Virus record (IMG/VR): IMGVR_UViG_3300033273_000026
Coordinates: 1 to 26,195 of that record
Direction: 5' to 3' (one strand)
Length of the DNA: 26,195 bases
DNA from: a virus
Numbering within the stretch: position 1 is the first letter of the stretch; each line of letters starts with the position of its first letter. Under the pieces are notes generated by a model. The model was not told where the DNA came from and ran no database searches. It saw only the letters and a program-made list of their open reading frames with translations. A program made the translations under genes and the position numbers. Shown here piece after piece: positions 2,227 to 25,762 of this stretch.

Positions 2227-3315
2227 TTATAAGCTCCCATAATCATTTGTTGAGACCGTTGCATTAGCAACACTACCAAAATCATTTATGGCAGTGAGAA
2301 TACCTGAGTTAATATTTGACGCGACTAAATTAATATTTGCTATATCGGCAGCAACTGCTCCAATATCTGTTGCATCATTAGCAACCGCTGTAATGTCAGC
2401 ACTTACTGGCCCAAGAGCATCAATACTTGTAGCAAGCGGTACAAGAGTCGAAATATTAGAAACTAAAGTAGCATCAAAAGTACTCGCAGCTGTTGAAATG
2501 TCTGCATTGTTTCCAGCAACAGATGTTACATCTGAAGAAATACCAGCTACTGTTGTAACATTAGCAGATATACCAGCAACAGTTGTAATATCTGCATCAT
2601 TTCCAGCAACAGTGTTTATATTCGAAGTATTGCCAGCAACCGTTGTTACATTTGAAGATATACCTGCAACAGTAGTTACATTAGCTTTGATAGCAGCTAA
2701 TCCAGATATTGCATCTGTAGCCTCTGTGCCATCTTCAATATCAGCAAGTGTAGCAATATCAGCCGTTATTGCCGCTAATGAATTAACGTCTGCGATTTCT
2801 GGCCCTTGCTCTGCCACACCCGTCGTTGCGTTAAAACCTAGAACTCGACCCTTACGATCATCTTTAGCGGGTAGAGTAAGATCAACATCAACCGCATCTC
2901 TGACCGGGGCAACCATCGCTCTATCTAGCCGTTCTTCATGACTAGCTAAAATCATGGTCAATGTATCAAAGTCATTCTCAAGCGAGGTAGCCGTAATGTT
3001 TCCCCCGGTGGTATACACGCTAGAACGGCTAAGAGGGAGGTCACTGATAATACTTACAATAGCATTGTTAGCTGGCGTATAGTCAGAAGGTGTTGTTTTA
3101 AATACAACTTTTCCTGTGCCGTCGGTATTTAGACCCGCTGAGTTAGTGCTTGTCTTAATATCATAGTGAGTGCTTTCAGTCTGCAAAGTAGCATCCACAT
3201 ACACCTTAATATCCGATGTATTGTTTACTTGGAAACTAAAACTGAACTCAGTAGTCGAGCCGTTGCCCGTATACTGCGCCCGTCTAGTTTGGTCTGTTAT
3301 ACTAAAAGTAGCCAT
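2227..3315 (-). CDS. T7-like tail fibre adaptor protein
   Basis: A 362-residue protein. Residues 1-165 match the N-terminal virion-attachment domain of T7 gp17-type tail fibres: TRRAQYTGNGSTTEFSFSF, DIKVYVDATL, DLPLSRSSVYTTGGNI, the helix SLENDFDTLTMILASHEERLDRAM, and the LPAKDDRKGRVLGFNATTG linker. The C-terminal half is built of ten-residue VAG repeats (see the repeat entry) and a looser alanine-rich continuation. There is no receptor-binding tip, and the protein stops right before an Mtd-type fibre. It is therefore probably the shaft or adaptor that docks a separate receptor-binding protein on the tail. A GAGG ribosome binding site lies 9 bases before the ATG. Confidence 0.88.
   Translation of the reverse strand: MATFSITDQTRRAQYTGNGSTTEFSFSFQVNNTSDIKVYVDATLQTESTHYDIKTSTNSAGLNTDGTGKVVFKTTPSDYTPANNAIVSIISDLPLSRSSVYTTGGNITATSLENDFDTLTMILASHEERLDRAMVAPVRDAVDVDLTLPAKDDRKGRVLGFNATTGVAEQGPEIADVNSLAAITADIATLADIEDGTEATDAISGLAAIKANVTTVAGISSNVTTVAGNTSNINTVAGNDADITTVAGISANVTTVAGISSDVTSVAGNNADISTAASTFDATLVSNISTLVPLATSIDALGPVSADITAVANDATDIGAVAADIANINLVASNINSGILTAINDFGSVANATVSTNDYGSL
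2485..2682 (-). repeat. Ten-residue VAG repeats in the tail fibre shaft
   Basis: Residues 212-275 of the T7-like fibre consist of six consecutive ten-residue units of the form N/D-(V/I)-x-(T/S)-V-A-G-(I/N)-x-(S/A) (the sixth ends DVTSVAGNNA), then degenerate units such as DISTAA. The 30-base period is visible in the DNA as recurring GTTGCTGG/ACTGTTGC-type words, with many synonymous differences between units. Such repeats form elongated fibre shafts in many marine phage fibres. They can also expand or contract by recombination. Confidence 0.8.
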
Positions 3316-3334: not shown

Positions 3335-3345
3335 GTATTTGTACA
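3335..3345 (-). promoter_or_regulatory. Copy 1 of intergenic motif TGTACAAATAC
   Basis: The 11-base word TGTACAAATAC (minus strand) starts right after the TAG stop of the 954-residue virion gene and fills the upstream part of the short gap before the T7-like fibre gene. An identical copy precedes the capsid operon (15580-15590), another lies on the plus strand at 22866-22876, and a one-mismatch copy is at 22892-22902. Reading it as a -35 region, a TGTAGT hexamer follows 17 bases later. A start from there would fall inside the first codons of the fibre gene, so an operator or RNA role is equally possible. Confidence 0.45.
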
Positions 3346-6210
3346 CTAATCAAACACATTTGTCATCATATCATTATCATCTTGCATCAAGTGCTGAAGA
3401 CTTGGAGTTTCGTTAATTAATCTTTTTCTTGCTTGCTGACGGCGATTTGACACTATTGAGTTTAAAGCATCAAACCTATCTTCATCAGTAGGCAGAGAAA
3501 AGTAATCACTTTCTGAGTTTGTTATTTCATCTCTCAAAGCGTTAAGCAGTGTGTCATCTGGGTCAAATCCAACCTCACCAAGAACACGCCCCTCACTATC
3601 AACTTCATTTACCAGTCTTACAAACTGATTAAATTCATTAGCGTTTAACAATACTTGCTGAACTCGCTGACTATGAAAGCTTAGAGAACCCGCGCCTATT
3701 TCACTTAATCTAATAAGCTCATTGTCCACATCACTGTACCCGCCTTGCTGTACTCTGAACGGACTTAATGACTCGCCCAAAGTTCCTTTGCCCTGCGTTC
3801 TTGGGTTGCCCCAAAAATTTAAACCGACGGGCAGTTTATCGCTTGTATATGGATTTCTCGACTTTGCTTTATTCAATGCAATATAGAAGCCCTGAAGAAA
3901 TGCTGGCACTTCAGTCATTAGTTCCCCGGTTAAAGGATCTGTACCTTCTCCCAACATTGTATTACTGGCTACCGGGTTGTGCATCCTTTCCATCAATGCG
4001 CTAAAAGACGATTGACTTATTAAGTTATACTCACCACCACTTAACGTATTAACAGCATAACTGGGCAATCCAAAGGTCGCCCGGTCAATATTACCGATCA
4101 CATTTGTTCCTACATTGCCAACTTGTCCACCCGTCCATTTAGCCATTCTCTTAATAAAGTCTTCTTTTGTTTGGAACTGTCCGCCAGCCGCAGCCTGAAG
4201 TTCAGCAACTCCTTGTAGAAACGGCATATTTGTAGCGTAATCAGAAGCAGCTAAAACATAATTTTTAATAATATCGTCATAGTCTTTTGGGTCTAGCAGT
4301 GAAATATCTTCTTCATGATACTTAGAATATTGCGCTAAATCTGCGCCCATAACTAGCAATGCTGACAAAGGATCTAAACGGCTAAAGGTTGTATACTCAT
4401 ATGTGCCATCTTCTTGCTTGATACCAATAGAGTAGGGCGGCACGTTGGCGGCTCCCATGATATTAATATTGGTGCTAAAATTTTCTGGACCACTACCATT
4501 GATAACAATCTCATCACCATAGTCGCCATTAGCTATACCAAACATAGTCATCGCTATAGTGTTGCCTAGAGCAAGTTTAGCGAGAGCATCATCTAATTCA
4601 GGACCAGATCCTTTTTTAATAGCGTTATAAACTTGATATATATTTAACGTTCTATCAAACGCTTCTTTAACAACGTTGGTCGGTGTATTAACGAAAGGCA
4701 CAACTGGTTTTAAATACGGGACATTTACACCTCTTGATATATATCCAAACACACCTTCAGGCGTTCCTTGAAATGTCAGCTTTCGCGCTTCGGTTTTCAT
4801 CATTTCCTTAAGACTATCGGAAGGGTTTATCATGACGTCGCTATATTTATCTTGCGCCATTTGTTTAGCGGTCGCTCGATCAATGCCACTTCTTCTAGCC
4901 ATAGTATAAGCTATCTGTGACTCTCGGTGCGCTTCTCGATAAAGCACACGCCGCATAGAAATGACCTTAAAATATTCATCCTCAGACGCTAACAGCCGAC
5001 CCGGTATTCTTGTGGCTATACCTAATGTATCAACAGAAGCTTTGAAAAAATCACCTTGTGCCATTGCTTCATAGACGTCAGCAACATTATCTGAACTGCC
5101 TATGGCTCGTCTGTTTTTTAAATCAATCTTAGAAACAAGATCGCCGCCTTCACCCGTAACAAAGGTTTTAGCCATTAGCAAAAGGGCATCTTTCTGAGCC
5201 ATCATCATGCCGTGCATTTCGGCTGCTGCTTCGCCTATATATCTTTGGTCGCCAACCTCACCACGCAAACCGCCTAGTGTTCTAATGTTTCCTATTGTCC
5301 CAGCAAGACCACGTTCTGCTAGGGAAAGAAACTGAAAACTAGCGTTACCCGCCATGTTAACTATATGGGTTGTCGGTGAACTTAGTAGCGCGTTGATGTA
5401 GTTCTCCATCGCAACGTCATAAGTTTTTGCTAAGAAGCCTTGCTCTGCATACTTTGCTCTAGCCAATGGACTATTCATTTGTAGGAAAGCTTCAAGGTGA
5501 TAATCAATCATTCCTTCGTCAGCTTCGTTAACCCACTGGTCTAAACTTTCTGACATTTGTGATAAGTTTAAATCTTGTAGCTTACTAACATTCCTAACTA
5601 CAGCCATACCTCTTGCAAACTCAGAAACATTGCCAGACACTTGCGCTGCTAGGTTAGATTGCACAGTTGCCATTATCTGTAGCTTTTTAAACTCTGCCTT
5701 CCGAACATCAGGGTCAGTGCTATTTCTAGCCTTTAATGCGGTATGCTGTAACTCTTTACCAAGTTTAATAAATGCAACTATACCAGTAAGAACGTCATCT
5801 GGAGGCAACACTTCGCCGGGTTTTCTTTTTAACAATTTGTACGCAGCATCTTGAAAACCAGACTGGTTTAAAAGTTCTTCCATACTTTTTTTGTCACGAC
5901 GTAAGTGCTTAAACAATTCTTTGTTATTGTTTTTAATATTAGTAAGAACTGTTTCTAAATTAAAATCATCAGCATTTTCACCAAAGATTTCACCAATACG
6001 ACCAAGGTTTAACCCACCTTTGAAACCACCCGCTTCAAGCGTAGCGTTAAGAGCTTCGACATCTGAGTCATCCATGCCCTTAATAATCAAAGATCCACCG
6101 GGGCCGGGGGTAATATCATCAGTAGGGGTTAAGCCACCAAACGATTTTTTTTCAGCTTGGTCTATCTGATTTTTAAAAAACGCTCGTAAGCTTTGTGCAA
6201 CGTTTACCAT
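3346..6210 (-). CDS. Large internal virion (ejection) protein, 954 residues
   Basis: By position it is the last of three large proteins between the gp14-like protein and the tail fibres. This is the place of the T7 gp15/gp16 internal core proteins that form the DNA-ejection channel. It contains helical segments and a patch around residues 270-310 (NYINALLSSPTTHIVNMAGN, then FLSLAERGLAG) that I have seen in large phage ejection or polyvalent proteins. A hydrophobic stretch lies near residues 545-565 (LALGNTIAMTMFGIANG). No lysozyme or transglycosylase motif was recognised. A strong AAGGGGG ribosome binding site lies 7 bases before the ATG at 6210. Similarity to T7 gp16 at sequence level is not evident, so the ejection role rests on order and size. 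Confidence 0.75.
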   Translation of the reverse strand: MVNVAQSLRAFFKNQIDQAEKKSFGGLTPTDDITPGPGGSLIIKGMDDSDVEALNATLEAGGFKGGLNLGRIGEIFGENADDFNLETVLTNIKNNNKELFKHLRRDKKSMEELLNQSGFQDAAYKLLKRKPGEVLPPDDVLTGIVAFIKLGKELQHTALKARNSTDPDVRKAEFKKLQIMATVQSNLAAQVSGNVSEFARGMAVVRNVSKLQDLNLSQMSESLDQWVNEADEGMIDYHLEAFLQMNSPLARAKYAEQGFLAKTYDVAMENYINALLSSPTTHIVNMAGNASFQFLSLAERGLAGTIGNIRTLGGLRGEVGDQRYIGEAAAEMHGMMMAQKDALLLMAKTFVTGEGGDLVSKIDLKNRRAIGSSDNVADVYEAMAQGDFFKASVDTLGIATRIPGRLLASEDEYFKVISMRRVLYREAHRESQIAYTMARRSGIDRATAKQMAQDKYSDVMINPSDSLKEMMKTEARKLTFQGTPEGVFGYISRGVNVPYLKPVVPFVNTPTNVVKEAFDRTLNIYQVYNAIKKGSGPELDDALAKLALGNTIAMTMFGIANGDYGDEIVINGSGPENFSTNINIMGAANVPPYSIGIKQEDGTYEYTTFSRLDPLSALLVMGADLAQYSKYHEEDISLLDPKDYDDIIKNYVLAASDYATNMPFLQGVAELQAAAGGQFQTKEDFIKRMAKWTGGQVGNVGTNVIGNIDRATFGLPSYAVNTLSGGEYNLISQSSFSALMERMHNPVASNTMLGEGTDPLTGELMTEVPAFLQGFYIALNKAKSRNPYTSDKLPVGLNFWGNPRTQGKGTLGESLSPFRVQQGGYSDVDNELIRLSEIGAGSLSFHSQRVQQVLLNANEFNQFVRLVNEVDSEGRVLGEVGFDPDDTLLNALRDEITNSESDYFSLPTDEDRFDALNSIVSNRRQQARKRLINETPSLQHLMQDDNDMMTNVFD

Positions 6211-14537: not shown

Positions 14538-15389
14538 TTATGACTCATCACAGATCACATCGACGATCCCGTCAGTATCGATTGCGCCAGCACCCATTGA
14601 GAGCATAGCGGTAACCAAGAAAGACGTTTTCTCAGGGATGTAATTGATTTCAGTTTTTGGAGCGATACCAACACCAACACCAAGTGCTGAACGATGGAAA
14701 GCAAAAGTTGTACGGTCGTTAGTTGAAAGAGGTAGACCGTCTTCATCACGATCACCAATAACATGAAAGCGGAAGCCCATCATTGTATTGATTTCGCCAC
14801 TTACTAACGCTCTTAGCGTCTGGAAGTCTCCAGAAACTGCACGTTCATCACCAAGCAAACCAGCTAAGTTATTAGCGTGGATTACAAAATGACGATCTGT
14901 TGGTGGTACGTTTTTCGCGTCCAAAGCTTTTTTCGCTGCGATAATTTTACCAACGTTTAAGTTTGATGCTGCTGGTGAACCAGAAGTCACAACAGTTTTA
15001 GCAACTGTCGATCCCGCTGATGCGGCATTTAGCGCATCAATGATGATTTGGTCTTCACGACGTCCGATTGCATTACCAACAACTTGAGCCAACTCTTGAC
15101 GCTCGTCAAAGTTAATTTTTTGCTGATTAAAGATATCAGAATATTCGCTAGCCACATAGTCAGTAAGGCTTACGGAAATCTGTGAAAAACTAGAATTTAT
15201 TGGCACAACATCGGACTGCGGCACTCTGACTGATGCAGTTCCTTTACCAACTTTCGGGAATTTTACGGTGTCTCCCGTTACACCTGTGCGTGTACGTGCA
15301 GCCCCACGGAGAACAGCCGCACCTTGATAGGCTTGGTGTACTTCCGCTTCAAATAGCTGAACGAACGCTGGACTAAGGTTCGTAGACAT
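14538..15389 (-). CDS. Major capsid protein (HK97-fold type)
   Basis: A 283-residue protein. The N-terminus (FVQLFEAEVHQAYQGAAVLR), a lysine/threonine-rich E-loop-like segment (TGDTVKFPKVGKGTASVRVP at about 36-55), QISVSLTDYVASEYSDIFNQQKINFDERQELAQVVGNAIGRREDQIIIDAL (helix region 70-120), the FVIHANNLAGLLGDER segment and MMGFRFHVIGD (about 200-210) are typical of the short capsid proteins of podoviruses. It lies after the scaffold gene and before the decoration gene. It has its own terminator, promoter and structured leader upstream, as expected for the most abundant virion protein. AGGAG is 9 bases before the ATG. Confidence 0.92.
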   Translation of the reverse strand: MSTNLSPAFVQLFEAEVHQAYQGAAVLRGAARTRTGVTGDTVKFPKVGKGTASVRVPQSDVVPINSSFSQISVSLTDYVASEYSDIFNQQKINFDERQELAQVVGNAIGRREDQIIIDALNAASAGSTVAKTVVTSGSPAASNLNVGKIIAAKKALDAKNVPPTDRHFVIHANNLAGLLGDERAVSGDFQTLRALVSGEINTMMGFRFHVIGDRDEDGLPLSTNDRTTFAFHRSALGVGVGIAPKTEINYIPEKTSFLVTAMLSMGAGAIDTDGIVDVICDES

Positions 15390-15451
15390 TTCTAATAGCT
15401 CCTATTTTGAACCAATTAAATTTGTCGCCGTATTAGGTTGTCGGAAGGCCC

Positions 15452-15508
15452 GGCCTCTGGCTTCGCGGTACGTCCGCGCCCGTTAGATTTCTCTAAACCA
15501 GACAGGCC
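15452..15508 (-). ncRNA. Predicted RNA three-way junction in the capsid 5' leader
   Basis: On the minus strand the leader can fold as a compact three-way junction. P1 pairs GGCCT-gt-CTGG (15508-15498, 2-base bulge) with CCAGAGGCC (15460-15452). P2 is TTAGA-GAAA-TCTAA (15496-15483) capped by a GNRA tetraloop. P3 is CGCGG-ACGTA-CCGCG (15478-15464). The joining strands are only 1, 4 and 3 bases. All Watson-Crick pairs are perfect. It lies about 62 bases before the capsid ATG. A role in mRNA stability, processing, or regulation of capsid translation is inference. It does not match any riboswitch class I can name. Confidence 0.55.
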
Positions 15509-15539
15509 CTAAAGGTTATCTGTCACACGTAGGATACAC

Positions 15540-15557
15540 TACAAGCTGTAGCTTGTA
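15540..15557. promoter_or_regulatory. Palindrome TACAAGC-N4-GCTTGTA at the capsid promoter
   Basis: Perfect 7-bp inverted repeat with spacer TGTA. The same arms with 4-base spacers (TGGG, TGGG, TGTG) occur three times inside the replication initiator gene at 23243-23316, and I found no further full copies. This copy is in non-coding DNA and overlaps the predicted transcription start (about 15556) of the capsid operon, so it may be an operator for the initiator protein. In the RNA it would also form a hairpin at the very 5' end, an alternative role. Confidence 0.6.
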
Positions 15558-15562
15558 AACAT

Positions 15563-15591
15563 ATTAGATGCTAGGTGTAGTATTTGTACAT
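15563..15591 (-). promoter_or_regulatory. Predicted capsid operon promoter with TGTACAAATAC motif
   Basis: Minus strand: ATGTAC (15591-15586), 17-base spacer, then TCTAAT (15568-15563, five of six matches to TATAAT). The -35 side lies in the recurring 11-base motif TGTACAAATAC (15580-15590). It directly follows the terminator of the scaffold operon. A promoter right after a terminator and before the capsid gene is functionally sensible. Recognition by host sigma-70 or by a phage factor cannot be told from sequence. Confidence 0.5.
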
Positions 15592-22753: not shown

Positions 22754-22816
22754 TTACTTCTCCATGTTTTTTACCAAAATATTTTTGAGTGGCCCCTATA
22801 CTACGCGACAGGGGGC

Positions 22817-22857
22817 GGGGGGGCATAAGGTGCCTTTTTTGTAACGCACACCCCCCC
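22817..22857. repeat. G7/C7 inverted repeat in the leader of the SSB-like gene
   Basis: Seven G (22817-22823) and seven C (22851-22857) face each other across 27 bases that include a smaller GGCA/TGCC hairpin (22822-22834). The stretch lies in the 5' leader of the SSB-like gene on the minus strand. It could form a strong hairpin or a G-rich structure in the RNA. A T-run follows only on the plus strand and after a 4-bp stem, so it is not a convincing terminator. Confidence 0.45.
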
Positions 22858-22864
22858 TATACCT

Positions 22865-22902
22865 TTGTACAAATACTAGCCGACCGTGTGGTGTTTGTAC
22901 AA
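22865..22902. promoter_or_regulatory. Inverted pair of TTGTACAAATAC motifs / promoter for the SSB-terminase genes
   Basis: TTGTACAAATAC (22865-22876, plus) and GTGTTTGTACAA (22891-22902) form 12-base inverted arms with one mismatch and a 14-base loop. The right arm ends exactly at the stop codon of the initiator gene. Read on the minus strand, TTGTAC (22902-22897), an 18-base spacer and TAGTAT (22878-22873) form a promoter-like pair, which would serve the SSB-like, terminase and head genes. The core TTTGTACAAA is itself a palindrome, so a dimeric regulator could bind here. Confidence 0.5.
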
Positions 22903-23853
22903 TCATCTTATTCGCATCTTGTTTGTCAGGTGTTTTATATGCTCCTCTGCTGTCTTGTGATCCTTCTTCTTGTTCTGCTTACGTGCAATGAAATACTGCA
23001 ATGATACTGGGTGCTGCTTGTTATTCTTTACCAGCCAATCCAATACATACCCGGCGTCTCTACCGAATGACTCGACGGTATACCCAAGACCAAAGAGTTG
23101 TTTGGCTAGATCCATCTGCCTCAGATCATACACCCAACCCTTTCCATATCTTTTCATAATCTCCGCGCTGAATTGCTCGCATAATCTTTTACAATCAATA
23201 TCCTTAATCTCTTTATCTATAGTTCTATGTAAGTCTTTATGAACAAGCTGTGGCTTGTGGGTTTGCACAAGCTGGGGCTTGTACTTGTGGTCATCATCTA
23301 CAAGCTGGGGCTTGTACTTGTTAGAGTTATCCACAGGTTTAGTCGACTTATCCACAGGCTTTGTTGACCGTTTCTTTTGACCTTTTGGCCCGGCTGTAGC
23401 GAGTTCTATTGTCTTCTTAGCTTCTTCTGCTTGTTGTTCTGGAGTAGCTGCGTCTGACGGTATTGTAGCGAGTGCTTCTTCTAGTGATACTCTGGGGTCG
23501 TAGATAACTCTCCAAGCGGCTCCTTTACGTCCGTAGGCTCTGACTGGGGCTTCTTTGCGTATCTTTTCGATGTAGCCCCATTGGACGAGCTTACGCATAT
23601 GCTGAGAGATAGCTTGCTGTGTACAGTTCATACGACGGGCGAGTGTGCTTTGGTTAACCCAGAATATGGCAGTGTGGTAGTTAACGTGACCACAGCAATG
23701 AGCGAGTACGACGAGTGTCATGGGGTATTGGTAGAAGCGTTCGTCTACGATAGCTCTGCCCGGTAGTGCGGAGTATGCGCCGGGTGATTGGTTTTCGCCG
23801 TGACCGTCTGGTGCGTCTCTGACCGGGTCTGGTGTGAGCTCTGACTTTAGCAC
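22903..23853 (-). CDS. Winged-helix replication initiator (lambda O-like layout)
   Basis: A 316-residue protein starting with GTG at 23853; the start overlaps the upstream stop by 7 bases. The N-terminal part (PGRAIVDERFYQYPMTLVVLAH..., then WVNQSTLARRMNCTQQAISQHMRKLVQWGYIEKI at about residues 65-98) is a winged helix-turn-helix of the kind found in phage replication initiators. ATG at residue 45 would cut this domain, so the GTG start is favoured. Residues 160-205 are a polar linker with tandem STKPVD(K/N) and three KPQLV repeats; the DNA here holds origin-like sites. The C-terminal part (about 208-316) is helical and would contact a helicase or loader. Neighbouring SSB-like and DnaA-type genes support a replication role. 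Binding to the palindromes is inference. Confidence 0.75.
   Translation of the reverse strand: MLKSELTPDPVRDAPDGHGENQSPGAYSALPGRAIVDERFYQYPMTLVVLAHCCGHVNYHTAIFWVNQSTLARRMNCTQQAISQHMRKLVQWGYIEKIRKEAPVRAYGRKGAAWRVIYDPRVSLEEALATIPSDAATPEQQAEEAKKTIELATAGPKGQKKRSTKPVDKSTKPVDNSNKYKPQLVDDDHKYKPQLVQTHKPQLVHKDLHRTIDKEIKDIDCKRLCEQFSAEIMKRYGKGWVYDLRQMDLAKQLFGLGYTVESFGRDAGYVLDWLVKNNKQHPVSLQYFIARKQNKKKDHKTAEEHIKHLTNKMRIR
23243..23258. repeat. Origin iteron 1: ACAAGC-TGTG-GCTTGT
   Basis: Perfect 6-bp inverted repeat with 4-base spacer, encoding part of a KPQLV repeat. It borders the AT-rich tract. Its centre is 24 bases from that of the next copy. Confidence 0.7.
23267..23282. repeat. Origin iteron 2: ACAAGC-TGGG-GCTTGT
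   Basis: Perfect 6-bp inverted repeat, spacer TGGG. Centre-to-centre distances are 24 and 33 bases to its neighbours. Confidence 0.7.
23299..23316. repeat. Origin iteron 3: TACAAGC-TGGG-GCTTGTA
   Basis: Perfect 7-bp inverted repeat, the longest of the three, with the same arms as the capsid-promoter copy at 15540-15557. Confidence 0.72.
23327..23335 (+). promoter_or_regulatory. DnaA box TTATCCACA (1)
   Basis: Exact match to the high-affinity E. coli DnaA box TTATCCACA. It lies in the first unit of a 21-bp tandem repeat that encodes STKPVD(K/N). Confidence 0.65.
23348..23356 (+). promoter_or_regulatory. DnaA box TTATCCACA (2)
   Basis: Second exact DnaA box, 21 bases (two helical turns) from the first and in the same orientation, so two DnaA-type domains would bind the same face of the DNA. 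Confidence 0.65.
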
Positions 23854-24095
23854 TTATCTTTATTCTCTAGGATTGATTTAAACCTGAAAGCTACCCGGCG
23901 TAGTTCCTTTTCCATTTCGGGCTCTATCATGCCTGAGAACAGAGGACGTCTATCTTTAGCTTGTTCTGCATCACCCGCAATGAGTGCGAAGGTTGCGTTT
24001 ACTGGACACATTTCAAACGTGATATGCCCGACGGTTATACTTTCCCGTGGTGCGTTTGGGTGACGTCGTTTGGACTTGAGGCTATGCTTACTCAT
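23847..24095 (-). CDS. Small hypothetical basic protein (82 residues)
   Basis: The N-terminus is basic (MSKHSLKSKRRHPNAPR), followed by a beta-like part (ESITVGHITFEMCPVNATFALIAGD) and a C-terminal helix (EPEMEKELRRVAFRFKSILEN). No family is recognised. It overlaps the DnaJ-type zinc gene upstream by 8 bases and the GTG start of the initiator downstream by 7 bases, so its translation is coupled to both. It may be a regulator of the early operon, but nothing in the sequence shows this directly. Confidence 0.65.
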   Translation of the reverse strand: MSKHSLKSKRRHPNAPRESITVGHITFEMCPVNATFALIAGDAEQAKDRRPLFSGMIEPEMEKELRRVAFRFKSILENKDKC

Positions 24096-24270
24096 TGTCT
24101 AGCTCCCCGGAGCCGCTGCACTCTTCACATTCAACTACGACTTCATCTAGGAACCCGCCGTGCTGGTAGTCCACGACTGCTACTTCTGTGTAGTATTGAC
24201 CTTCACCGTCGCAGTGAGGGCAAGTAAAGGTTTTACTAAAGGTTTGTTGTAAAGGTTTATCGGTCACCAT
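24088..24270 (-). CDS. DnaJ-type zinc-finger mini-protein
   Basis: A 60-residue protein with two CxxCxGxG motifs: CPHCDGEG (residues 17-24) and CEECSGSG (48-55), the pattern of the DnaJ cysteine-rich domain. Four cysteines can bind one zinc ion, half of the eight-cysteine domain of DnaJ. There is no J domain, so a chaperone role is unlikely; similar small phage proteins are usually left without function. Its start codon lies in the third palindrome of the operator array, suggesting that it is tightly regulated, possibly by its own product or by the nearby regulators. AGGGGG is 7 bases before the ATG. Confidence 0.7.
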   Translation of the reverse strand: MVTDKPLQQTFSKTFTCPHCDGEGQYYTEVAVVDYQHGGFLDEVVVECEECSGSGELDNE

Positions 24271-24319
24271 GACTATACCCCCTAGTCACAGTGACTACCC
24301 CCCTATGGTCACAGTGACC
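24262..24319. promoter_or_regulatory. Three-palindrome operator-like array GGTCAC-A-GTGACC
   Basis: GGTCACAGTGACC (24307-24319) and TAGTCACAGTGACTA (24283-24297) are perfect palindromes, and GGTCACCATGACT (24262-24274) is an imperfect third. Centres at 24268, 24290 and 24313 are 22 and 23 bases apart, about two helical turns, with C-rich TACCCCC spacers between them, so the whole is also a 22-23 bp direct repeat. It fills the gap between the nuclease gene and the zinc mini-protein gene and reaches into the latter's start codon. It looks like cooperative sites for a repressor, or iterons. Confidence 0.72.
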
Positions 24320-24782: not shown

Positions 24783-24974
24783 CTATTTATATTTCCGTGT
24801 GCTTTTTCTGGGTTCAAAGTTGATCGTTTCGTCTGCGGGTTTGATCCGTATGACTTCCGACGTTTGGAAGCTTGTTTTGCAAGCCGGGCAAGAGTAGAGC
24901 CGTAGCACATTATTGTAGCGTCTGGACTTGTTTAACACGACGGTATTCCTTCCGCTACACTCAGGACAGTTCAC
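24783..24974 (-). CDS. Zinc-ribbon regulator-like protein (NrdR/Ogr-like)
   Basis: A 63-residue protein starting with GTG at 24974. Two knuckles, CPEC (residues 3-6) and CPAC (29-32), enclose a basic beta strand (VVLNKSRRYNNVLRLYS), like the zinc ribbon of NrdR and the small Ogr/Delta-type phage activators. The C-terminus is basic (RKSTRKYK) and could help DNA binding. No ATP-cone follows, so it is not a full NrdR. The start overlaps the end of the DnaA domain IV gene by 14 bases, so their translation is coupled. A role as an early or late transcription switch is possible but not shown. Confidence 0.68.
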   Translation of the reverse strand: MNCPECSGRNTVVLNKSRRYNNVLRLYSCPACKTSFQTSEVIRIKPADETINFEPRKSTRKYK

Positions 24975-25353
24975 GGCGTAGCTCCCGATAGACTAGGTCT
25001 ACGTACTGGTCTTGCTCACGTAGTTTGTTGATCTGTTTGATACCGTGGAGTAGGGTGGTGTGATCCCTTTTCATGACCTTACCGATTTGTGTCAGTGTAC
25101 AGCCTGTGAGTTCGTAGCTCAGAAGGTAGGCTAGTTGTCGCCACGGCATGATAATCTTATCGCGCTTGGGGCCAATGAGTACGTCTATTTCTATTTCACT
25201 ACGGCGTGCGATGGCAGCGAGAACTTTTTTGACTGATACGCTCGCGGTGAAACTTCTAATATCTTTGTACCGAGGTGTATCGCTTCCACCATTTTCTTCT
25301 TCAGTCTGTACACTGGTGTTTTGAAGCCCTTCACATCCTCTATTATGGTGCAT
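24961..25353 (-). CDS. DnaA domain IV (Bac_DnaA_C) protein; possibly the frameshifted end of the DUF1064 gene
   Basis: The last 87 residues match the DnaA DNA-binding domain: VLAAIARRSEIEID, basic loop GPKRDKIIMPWRQLAYLLSYELTG, helix TLTQIGKVM and the signature KRDHTTLLHG, which corresponds to (G)GRDHTTVLHA in DnaA. There is no AAA+ domain. The only usable in-frame ATG (25353; an earlier one lies at 25419) sits deep in the nuclease gene without a well-spaced ribosome site and would add about 43 odd residues. No ATG, GTG or TTG occurs in frame between 25353 and the domain. The domain is in the -1 frame of DUF1064 behind an A AAA AAG site, which would give a 207-residue fusion. It is expected to bind DnaA boxes, such as the two near the phage origin. 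Confidence 0.8.
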   Translation of the reverse strand: MHHNRGCEGLQNTSVQTEEENGGSDTPRYKDIRSFTASVSVKKVLAAIARRSEIEIDVLIGPKRDKIIMPWRQLAYLLSYELTGCTLTQIGKVMKRDHTTLLHGIKQINKLREQDQYVDLVYRELRRELS

Positions 25354-25583
25354 CCTTGCTGACCCTGTAGACCAGTCGTGTTTAAATCTATGTACTGAAA
25401 ATCCGCTATGTACTTGCATATGAGTCTCCCGTTTATCTCGCAGCGAAAAGCTGGCTGCATCCTCAAGTCTTTTATTTCCCCGGCCTCGAGCCGTGGTTTT
25501 AGTGTGTGGTAGTAGTGCTTTGCTTCGGACATACTGTCGAAAGTGTATCCATCTAGCTCTACCTTCTTGGCTTTGTACTTCAC
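25191..25583 (-). CDS. DUF1064 PD-(D/E)XK nuclease-like protein
   Basis: A 130-residue protein starting with GTG at 25583, overlapping the upstream stop as GTGA. MKYKAKKVELDGYTFDSMSEAKHYYHTL, LEAGEIKDLRMQPAF, ICKYIADFQYID and IIEDVKGFKTPVYRLKKKM (residues 1-98) are the ordered motifs of DUF1064. E20, D61 and E82/K85 fit the PD-(D/E)XK active site. DUF1064 proteins are small phage endonuclease-like proteins of unknown target. The family domain ends at about residue 112; the last residues (SPRAYQSKK, then FSLPSHAVVK) follow the A AAA AAG site at codons 118-120. Normal termination gives this product; a -1 shift would replace the last 10 residues by DnaA domain IV. Confidence 0.85.
   Translation of the reverse strand: MKYKAKKVELDGYTFDSMSEAKHYYHTLKPRLEAGEIKDLRMQPAFRCEINGRLICKYIADFQYIDLNTTGLQGQQGCTIIEDVKGFKTPVYRLKKKMVEAIHLGTKILEVSPRAYQSKKFSLPSHAVVK
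25224..25230 (-). other. Candidate -1 ribosomal frameshift site A AAA AAG
   Basis: Six A and a G on the minus strand, read in the DUF1064 frame as TCA AAA AAG. This is the canonical X XXY YYZ heptamer used in E. coli dnaX. A -1 slip leads directly into the DnaA domain IV frame (GTT CTC GCT...). The zero frame stops 10 sense codons later at 25191. I do not see a strong downstream stem-loop or a clear upstream Shine-Dalgarno-like stimulator (only a weak GCGAG about 11 bases before). Confidence 0.55.
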
Positions 25584-25762
25584 GCAACTTGCCCCGCTGC
25601 GCGACGAACAAGCTTTAGTTCTTGCTCAACTTCTATGTTTAACTCTTTACAAATAAGGTCTTGTAAATAAAGGTTTACAGACTTTCCTTCATCCAAAGCT
25701 TTAAGATTTACAGCTTCTTTTATGCGTGGATTAAGCCTTAAATATATAACTTCTGTCTTCAT
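25580..25762 (-). CDS. Ribbon-helix-helix DNA-binding protein
   Basis: A 60-residue protein: strand TEVIYLRLNP (residues 3-12), helix RIKEAVNLKALDEG, the turn KSVN and helix LYLQDLICKELN. This is the strand-helix-helix of Arc/MetJ-type (RHH) repressors, also seen in HicB- and Arc-like phage proteins. It is the first leftward gene after the divergent promoter region, the typical place for an autoregulating repressor. It could bind the TTGCACA inverted repeat or the other repeated sites. It overlaps the nuclease start as GTGA, so it is expressed together with it. Confidence 0.72.
   Translation of the reverse strand: MKTEVIYLRLNPRIKEAVNLKALDEGKSVNLYLQDLICKELNIEVEQELKLVRRAAGQVA

Follow-up and report, generated by a model that had tools for sequence, protein, structure and literature searches.

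A stretch of 26,195 nucleotides of a virus genome (IMG/VR record IMGVR_UViG_3300033273_000026, positions 1 to 26,195, hereafter the window) was analysed with a focus on an initiator-like gene, the repeats embedded in it and a matching site in front of the major capsid gene. The initiator-like gene is located on the minus strand (22906..23853, stop codon 22903–22905), begins with a GTG start codon and encodes 316 amino acids. The product matched the Pfam HTH_36 model at residues 46–95 (E-value 4.9e-6), while comparison with PHROG returned a replication initiation group (2.8e-7) and an O-like group (5.6e-6, over residues 63–224); these matches, covering the helix-turn-helix and the C-terminal part, fit replication initiators. 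Assessment of the domain architecture revealed a predicted winged helix-turn-helix domain (residues 32–116; 23506..23760, minus strand), delimited by the AlphaFold model, Pfam and near-invariance in the family, which contains a nearly invariant recognition helix of the SQQA[VI]SQH type (residues 78–85). This is followed by a linker predicted to be disordered (residues 154–213; 23215..23394, minus strand; pLDDT below 50) and by a helical C-terminal domain (residues 218–312; 22918..23202, minus strand), which was defined by the model and the alignment and carries the motifs LRQ..LA and NNKQ.P.SLQYF. A structure search with the full model retrieved MarR-like winged-helix matches alone, none at E ≤ 0.001, and was uninformative for the C-terminal domain; a profile search of solved structures gave weak MarR-like matches only.

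A total of 98 relatives of the initiator could be collected from viral contigs, ranging from 94% down to approximately 40% identity, and none was found in the isolate phages, plasmids and GTDB species genomes searched. Since no relative occurs among the GTDB species genomes, no host and no prophage were assigned.

The DNA encoding the linker (23215–23394) holds three palindromes and two DnaA boxes. The first-pass annotation of this DNA, made from the sequence alone, had described three perfect ACAAGC-N4-GCTTGT palindromes, and exact copies indeed start at 23243, 23267 and 23300 with centres 24 and 33 bp apart. Their position, together with that of an AT-rich tract, in the part of the gene coding for the linker between the winged helix and the helical C-terminal domain was likewise borne out. 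In gene order these are iteron 1 (ACAAGCTGGGGCTTGT, 23300..23315), iteron 2 (ACAAGCTGGGGCTTGT, 23267..23282) and iteron 3 (ACAAGCTGTGGCTTGT, 23243..23258), each an exact match. Allowing up to one mismatch, the palindrome occurred four times in the window against 0.05 expected, and none of 100 shuffles reached four. The iterons are kept in relatives, and the 24-bp step between iterons 2 and 3 is almost invariant among them, with few exceptions. The distance to iteron 1 is 33, 34, 43, 44 or 45 bp, which makes two classes approximately one helical turn apart.

All three iterons of the window are read in a single frame as KPQLV, and the repeats could in principle represent a repeated functional peptide with the DNA symmetry as its by-product. 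The relatives give this explanation a negligible probability. Iteron 1 is read among them in all three frames (KPQLV; QAPAC; TSPSL or TSSSL; and TTPRL in one clade) with the palindrome unchanged, and three of the spacings (34, 43 and 44 bp) cannot be divided by three, indicating that the iterons were selected as DNA and not as peptide. Codon usage also argues against a peptide: among 75 K..LV repeats, Lys was encoded by AAG in 74, the preceding codon ended in AC in 74, and Leu was encoded by CTT in 64, compared to 8% elsewhere in the genes. Moreover, the palindrome also stands outside any gene, before the capsid gene. The peptide-repeat reading was therefore rejected, as frames and spacings change while the DNA palindrome persists, and it does so in relatives down to approximately 40% protein identity. 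This answers the question raised by the first-pass annotation of whether the palindromes are conserved beyond the need of the protein; the synonymous decay that it had named as a counter-sign was not found. The family thus offers a natural data set of an origin overlaid on a coding linker, which shifts its reading frame yet stays intact.

Two perfect DnaA boxes could be added to the earlier description, as could the fourth palindrome discussed below. Both boxes have the sequence TTATCCACA in the same orientation on the plus strand, the first in gene order at 23348..23356 and the second at 23327..23335, 21 bp away, and both are conserved. DnaA-box and AT-tract statistics were gathered over 35 representative lineages, the linkers of which contain 33 VD[KN] motifs; 32 of these were encoded exactly by TGTGGATAA, whereas elsewhere in the genes GTG makes up 15% of the Val codons and GAT 50% of the Asp codons. 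An exact box was present beside the iterons in about three quarters of the lineages. On the other side of the iterons lies the AT-rich tract that had been put at about 24% GC; the segment 23190..23242, presumed to be the unwinding region, has 24.5% GC and belongs to the lowest 0.8% of all 53-mers in the window. A comparable tract follows the last iteron in most lineages (median percentile 2%); over the 35 lineages, GC content in the 60 bp beyond this iteron averages 28.6%, compared to 47.2% for genes. With DnaA box, iterons and AT-rich tract following one another, the locus has the components of a DnaA-assisted theta origin.

The window further encodes a protein resembling DnaA domain IV without an AAA+ domain (ORF 24961..25611, minus strand, the true start probably lying further in; PF08299, 1.6e-14). 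The RDHTT motif is kept, the protein is present in 11 of 14 related records, and similar proteins occur in pelagiphage HTVC203P and in Acinetobacter phage records. It may bind the DnaA boxes of the origin or interfere with the host DnaA; presence of the gene showed no clear correlation with that of the boxes.

Cumulative GC skew had been proposed as a check of the origin, and the outcome was divided. In the window the minimum falls at 23217, inside the AT-rich tract, although gene direction does not switch across this point, and in four close relatives the skew change points lie 593–620 nt into the initiator gene, where the iterons end on their 3' side. Two points weigh against an origin at this place. 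Deeper lineages have their skew minimum 1.2–1.4 kb upstream of the iterons, at a divergent gene boundary, so that the skew may partly reflect the direction of transcription; and DnaA boxes are missing in 8 of the 35 lineages. In the window lineage the skew thus speaks for the origin; in the other lineages it is confounded, and it was discarded as a universal test. The deeper-lineage minimum, together with the occurrence of the palindrome in a promoter, would also suit another arrangement, in which the palindromes are operators or a centromere-like array for regulation or partition, with the true origin at another place such as the divergent early region 1–2 kb upstream. This arrangement is quite improbable, as DnaA boxes, phased iterons and an AT-rich tract co-occur and are conserved as DNA, the skew turn of the deeper lineages coincides with a gene-strand switch whereas that of the window lineage lies inside one gene, and the window contains no other short-spaced array that is an origin candidate, the only further repeats of this kind being those in a tail gene and a two-copy GTCACAGTGAC palindrome. 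The earlier proposal that the region is the phage replication origin with its initiator is thus well supported by the DNA-level conservation, the DnaA boxes, the AT-rich tract and the window skew, and the linker-coding part of the initiator gene very probably functions as a theta replication origin.

As a correction to the first-pass annotation, the palindrome also occurs away from the origin, in the capsid promoter. The fourth perfect copy, ACAAGCTGTAGCTTGT at 15541..15556, sits between the scaffold gene and the major capsid gene (14538..15389, minus strand; 283 amino acids, with 60% identity to the protein annotated as major capsid protein in phage MEP301). A -35-like element TTTACA (15554..15559, minus strand) overlaps this predicted operator by 3 bp, and a -10-like element TATCCT (15531..15536, minus strand) follows 17 bp after it. 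Among the 37 loci with a reachable capsid start, 35 carry one such site, 165–186 nt upstream of the capsid start codon, and five complete relatives (G001, G002, G004, G007 and G010) have no further site beyond this one and those of the origin. Of 27 distinct capsid sites, 25 have the start of the palindrome within TTTACA, and a TA-rich -10-like hexamer (TATNNN) stands 17 bp after TTTACA at capsid sites; in comparison, TTTACA was found at none of 175 origin sites. The layout is that of a sigma70-type promoter with a putative operator in its spacer. One lineage (L092) retained TTTACA-N17-TAATGG and lost the operator, which indicates that operator and promoter are separable. An RNA hairpin reading of the capsid copy is unlikely because the copy lies upstream of the -10 element and would not be transcribed from that promoter.

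A change of the origin sites went along with one of the capsid site. The clade comprising L093, L094, L095, L098 and L109 has ACAAC...GTTGT as its origin repeats, and its sole member with a reachable capsid gene, L094, carries ACAACCTCCAGGTTGT at the capsid promoter; in L122 and L123 the right halves end in ATTGT at the origin and at the capsid site alike. The recognition helix of the initiator, otherwise conserved as SQQAVSQH, reads SQQAVSRH (Q84R) in the L094 clade. The simplest reading of the joint change is that the initiator binds both kinds of site. It is highly likely that the initiator binds the iterons, and likely that the same protein binds the capsid site. Set against this are the two lineages without a capsid site, so that the site is not strictly required, and the fact that the change in the clade happened once in evolution, with 24 of 316 residues being clade-specific. 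Because it is one event among 24 such residues, Q84R taken by itself gives modest support.

A conceivable alternative binder is also available, namely a 78-amino-acid LexA-like helix-turn-helix protein that is present in the ten complete relatives examined (G001: L133 4136–4369). The palindromes could then serve the initiator at the origin only, with the capsid copy being the operator of this or another regulator, such as a host factor, that has the same recognition sequence. Operators in promoter spacers are frequent for ordinary repressors, which was counted in favour of a separate regulator. Nevertheless, this explanation is unlikely: it does not account for the joint change in the L094 clade, and the helix of the initiator is near-invariant with ACAAG sites and has R84 with ACAAC, whereas in the LexA-like protein the corresponding helix is free to vary even between genomes that share one site, and shows no relation to the site.

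Based on these results, a mechanism can be proposed. Initiator dimers, contacting every palindrome with their winged helix, would wrap the helically phased array, assisted by host DnaA on the TTATCCACA boxes; the AT-rich tract would then melt, and the host helicase and replisome would be loaded. No polymerase is recognised in the phage group itself. At the capsid promoter, an initiator dimer on the single palindrome in the spacer would exclude RNA polymerase. Repression is the most likely outcome since the site overlaps the -35 element and fills the space up to the -10, and on balance it is the net effect that would be expected. The opposite effect, activation of the capsid promoter by the initiator as a replication-dependent late activator, would suit the imperfect -10 elements of several genomes (TATCCT, TATCGG) and the extra conserved motif TGTACAAATACCAGATG upstream of the promoter in most close relatives. 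It appears doubtful, as a site that overlaps the -35 and fills a normal 17-bp spacer favours exclusion of the polymerase, and TTTACA is a good -35 that would need no help. If the initiator represses the capsid promoter, the multiplying origins might draw it off the capsid operator, so that capsid synthesis would begin once genomes exist for packaging; this titration-timed switch is put forward tentatively.

The anatomy of the locus, its conservation as DNA and the joint change of origin and capsid sites can be read directly from the sequences compared. The whole model, a lambda-like DnaA-assisted theta origin with a winged-helix initiator that also controls the capsid promoter, probably by repression, is fairly likely. 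It suggests that one protein links genome copying to shell making. If the less likely titration step were also true, late expression in this group would follow the number of genome copies and need neither a phage RNA polymerase nor an antiterminator. No description of the replication start and late-gene timing of such polymerase-less phages was met with in the papers found; the analysis yields a defined predicted origin, an initiator family of about 100 members and a predicted link between initiator and capsid promoter.

The window virus appears to be a marine virus of bacteria and belongs with a large group of uncultured marine podoviruses. The terminase is 68% identical to that of the OM43 phage MEP301, for which a lack of both DNA and RNA polymerase has been described (PMC8024684). 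The complete-looking relative G001 (33,850 bp with a 77-bp terminal repeat) encodes RecT, YqaJ, a serine resolvase and the LexA-like protein, and no replicative polymerase or helicase was recognised in scans of its proteins. Terminase large subunit (TerL), T7-like virion module and host-dependent replication together agree with a MEP301-like, polymerase-less podovirus group. The earlier note had regarded T7-like structural genes with a lambda-like replication start as a mosaic arrangement; given MEP301, described as without DNA or RNA polymerase, T7-like structural genes with host-dependent replication are unsurprising (PMC8024684). No lambda P-like helicase loader was recognised among the scanned proteins of the window and of one complete relative; many small unknown ORFs remain.

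Several other features were observed in the window. The leader of the capsid mRNA (15390–15530, minus strand) is a conserved structured RNA, in which 18 of 33 predicted pairs had two-sided compensatory changes over 18 relatives; it matched no Rfam family and is possibly a new cis-regulatory RNA. The motif TTGTACAAAYAC occurred four times compared to 0.39 expected: before the tail-fibre gene (3335–3346, minus strand), upstream of the capsid promoter (15580–15591, minus strand), and twice, in opposite orientations, in the gap that separates the initiator gene from its neighbour (22865–22876, plus strand; 22891–22902, minus strand). The related TGTACAAATACCAGATG is the motif conserved upstream of the capsid promoter in many relatives, including most of the close ones. 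The region between the initiator gene and the next gene also contains very GC-rich, strand-biased tracts at 22790–22870 (CCCCCCCGCCCCC; GGGGGGG on the minus strand). At 24278–24318, just upstream of a small gene (24088–24270), a pair of GTCACAGTGAC palindromes with a distance of 23 bp looks like another operator, and a tail-fibre-like gene (2227–3315) has five in-frame 30-bp repeats at 2481–2690.

The first-pass annotation had likened the locus to lambda, and the order of winged helix, iterons, AT-rich tract and C-terminal domain does agree with that of lambda O and its ori (PMC5043065). In both, the origin lies inside the initiator gene, with inverted-repeat iterons and an AT-rich tract after them (PMC5043065; PMC3985674). 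The present array differs in having three 16-bp palindromes at spacings of 33 and 24 instead of four 19-bp repeats, and perfect DnaA boxes inside the array, whereas the DnaA-protected sites of lambda lie downstream of pO (PMC3985674). In addition, the window initiator matches HTH_36 and MarR models and the O-like PHROGs weakly, with no phage O family in the Pfam scan up to E = 1, and, unlike lambda, the window virus has no recognised P-like loader among the proteins scanned and carries the site once more in front of the capsid gene, within the promoter.

The conserved DnaA boxes correct the earlier comparison in that the same list of parts is also that of the P1 and F origins. Iteron plasmid origins with DnaA boxes (P1, F, RK2, R6K and pSC101) likewise combine a DnaA box, phased initiator sites and an AT-rich region, and depend on DnaA (PMC3155836). 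Their initiators also bind a promoter; the mini-F RepE dimer, in the account relayed by PMC5043065, is an autogenous repressor. However, the origin of these plasmids is outside the rep gene, and the repressed gene is rep and not a capsid gene. The window repeats are palindromes and not the direct-repeat iterons that go with a monomeric Rep-family initiator, no Rep family was listed in the Pfam scans, and no plasmid record matched the initiator.

In the oriV of repABC replicons, which lies inside repC, the origin is again part of the initiator gene and the AT-rich tract is needed at the DNA level, where silent changes kill replication (PMC3155836). In contrast to the window origin, which has both, repC has neither iterons nor DnaA boxes (PMC3155836). 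Some relatives gave weak RepC or RP-C matches (0.011–0.11, far below the curated cut-offs), and RP-C membership was rejected, with 12.7–14.8 bits (0.025–0.11) against a cut-off of 24.4. The MEP301-type OM43 phage (MW452941) and HTVC203P share the virion gene order with the window, and HTVC203P also has a DnaA domain IV-like protein; MEP301, unlike the window virus, has no such palindrome and no match to the initiator.

The initiator itself could not be placed in any protein family of lambda, iteron-plasmid or repABC initiators, and searches of the open-licence literature returned no case in which the initiator of a phage acts on a capsid promoter. By analogy, the predicted origin would work like lambda in place and order, like the DnaA-dependent iteron plasmids in its parts, and like repABC in using the initiator gene as the origin. 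The array of DnaA boxes and palindromes inside a phage initiator gene of this family, with the same palindrome in the capsid promoter, appears to be new.
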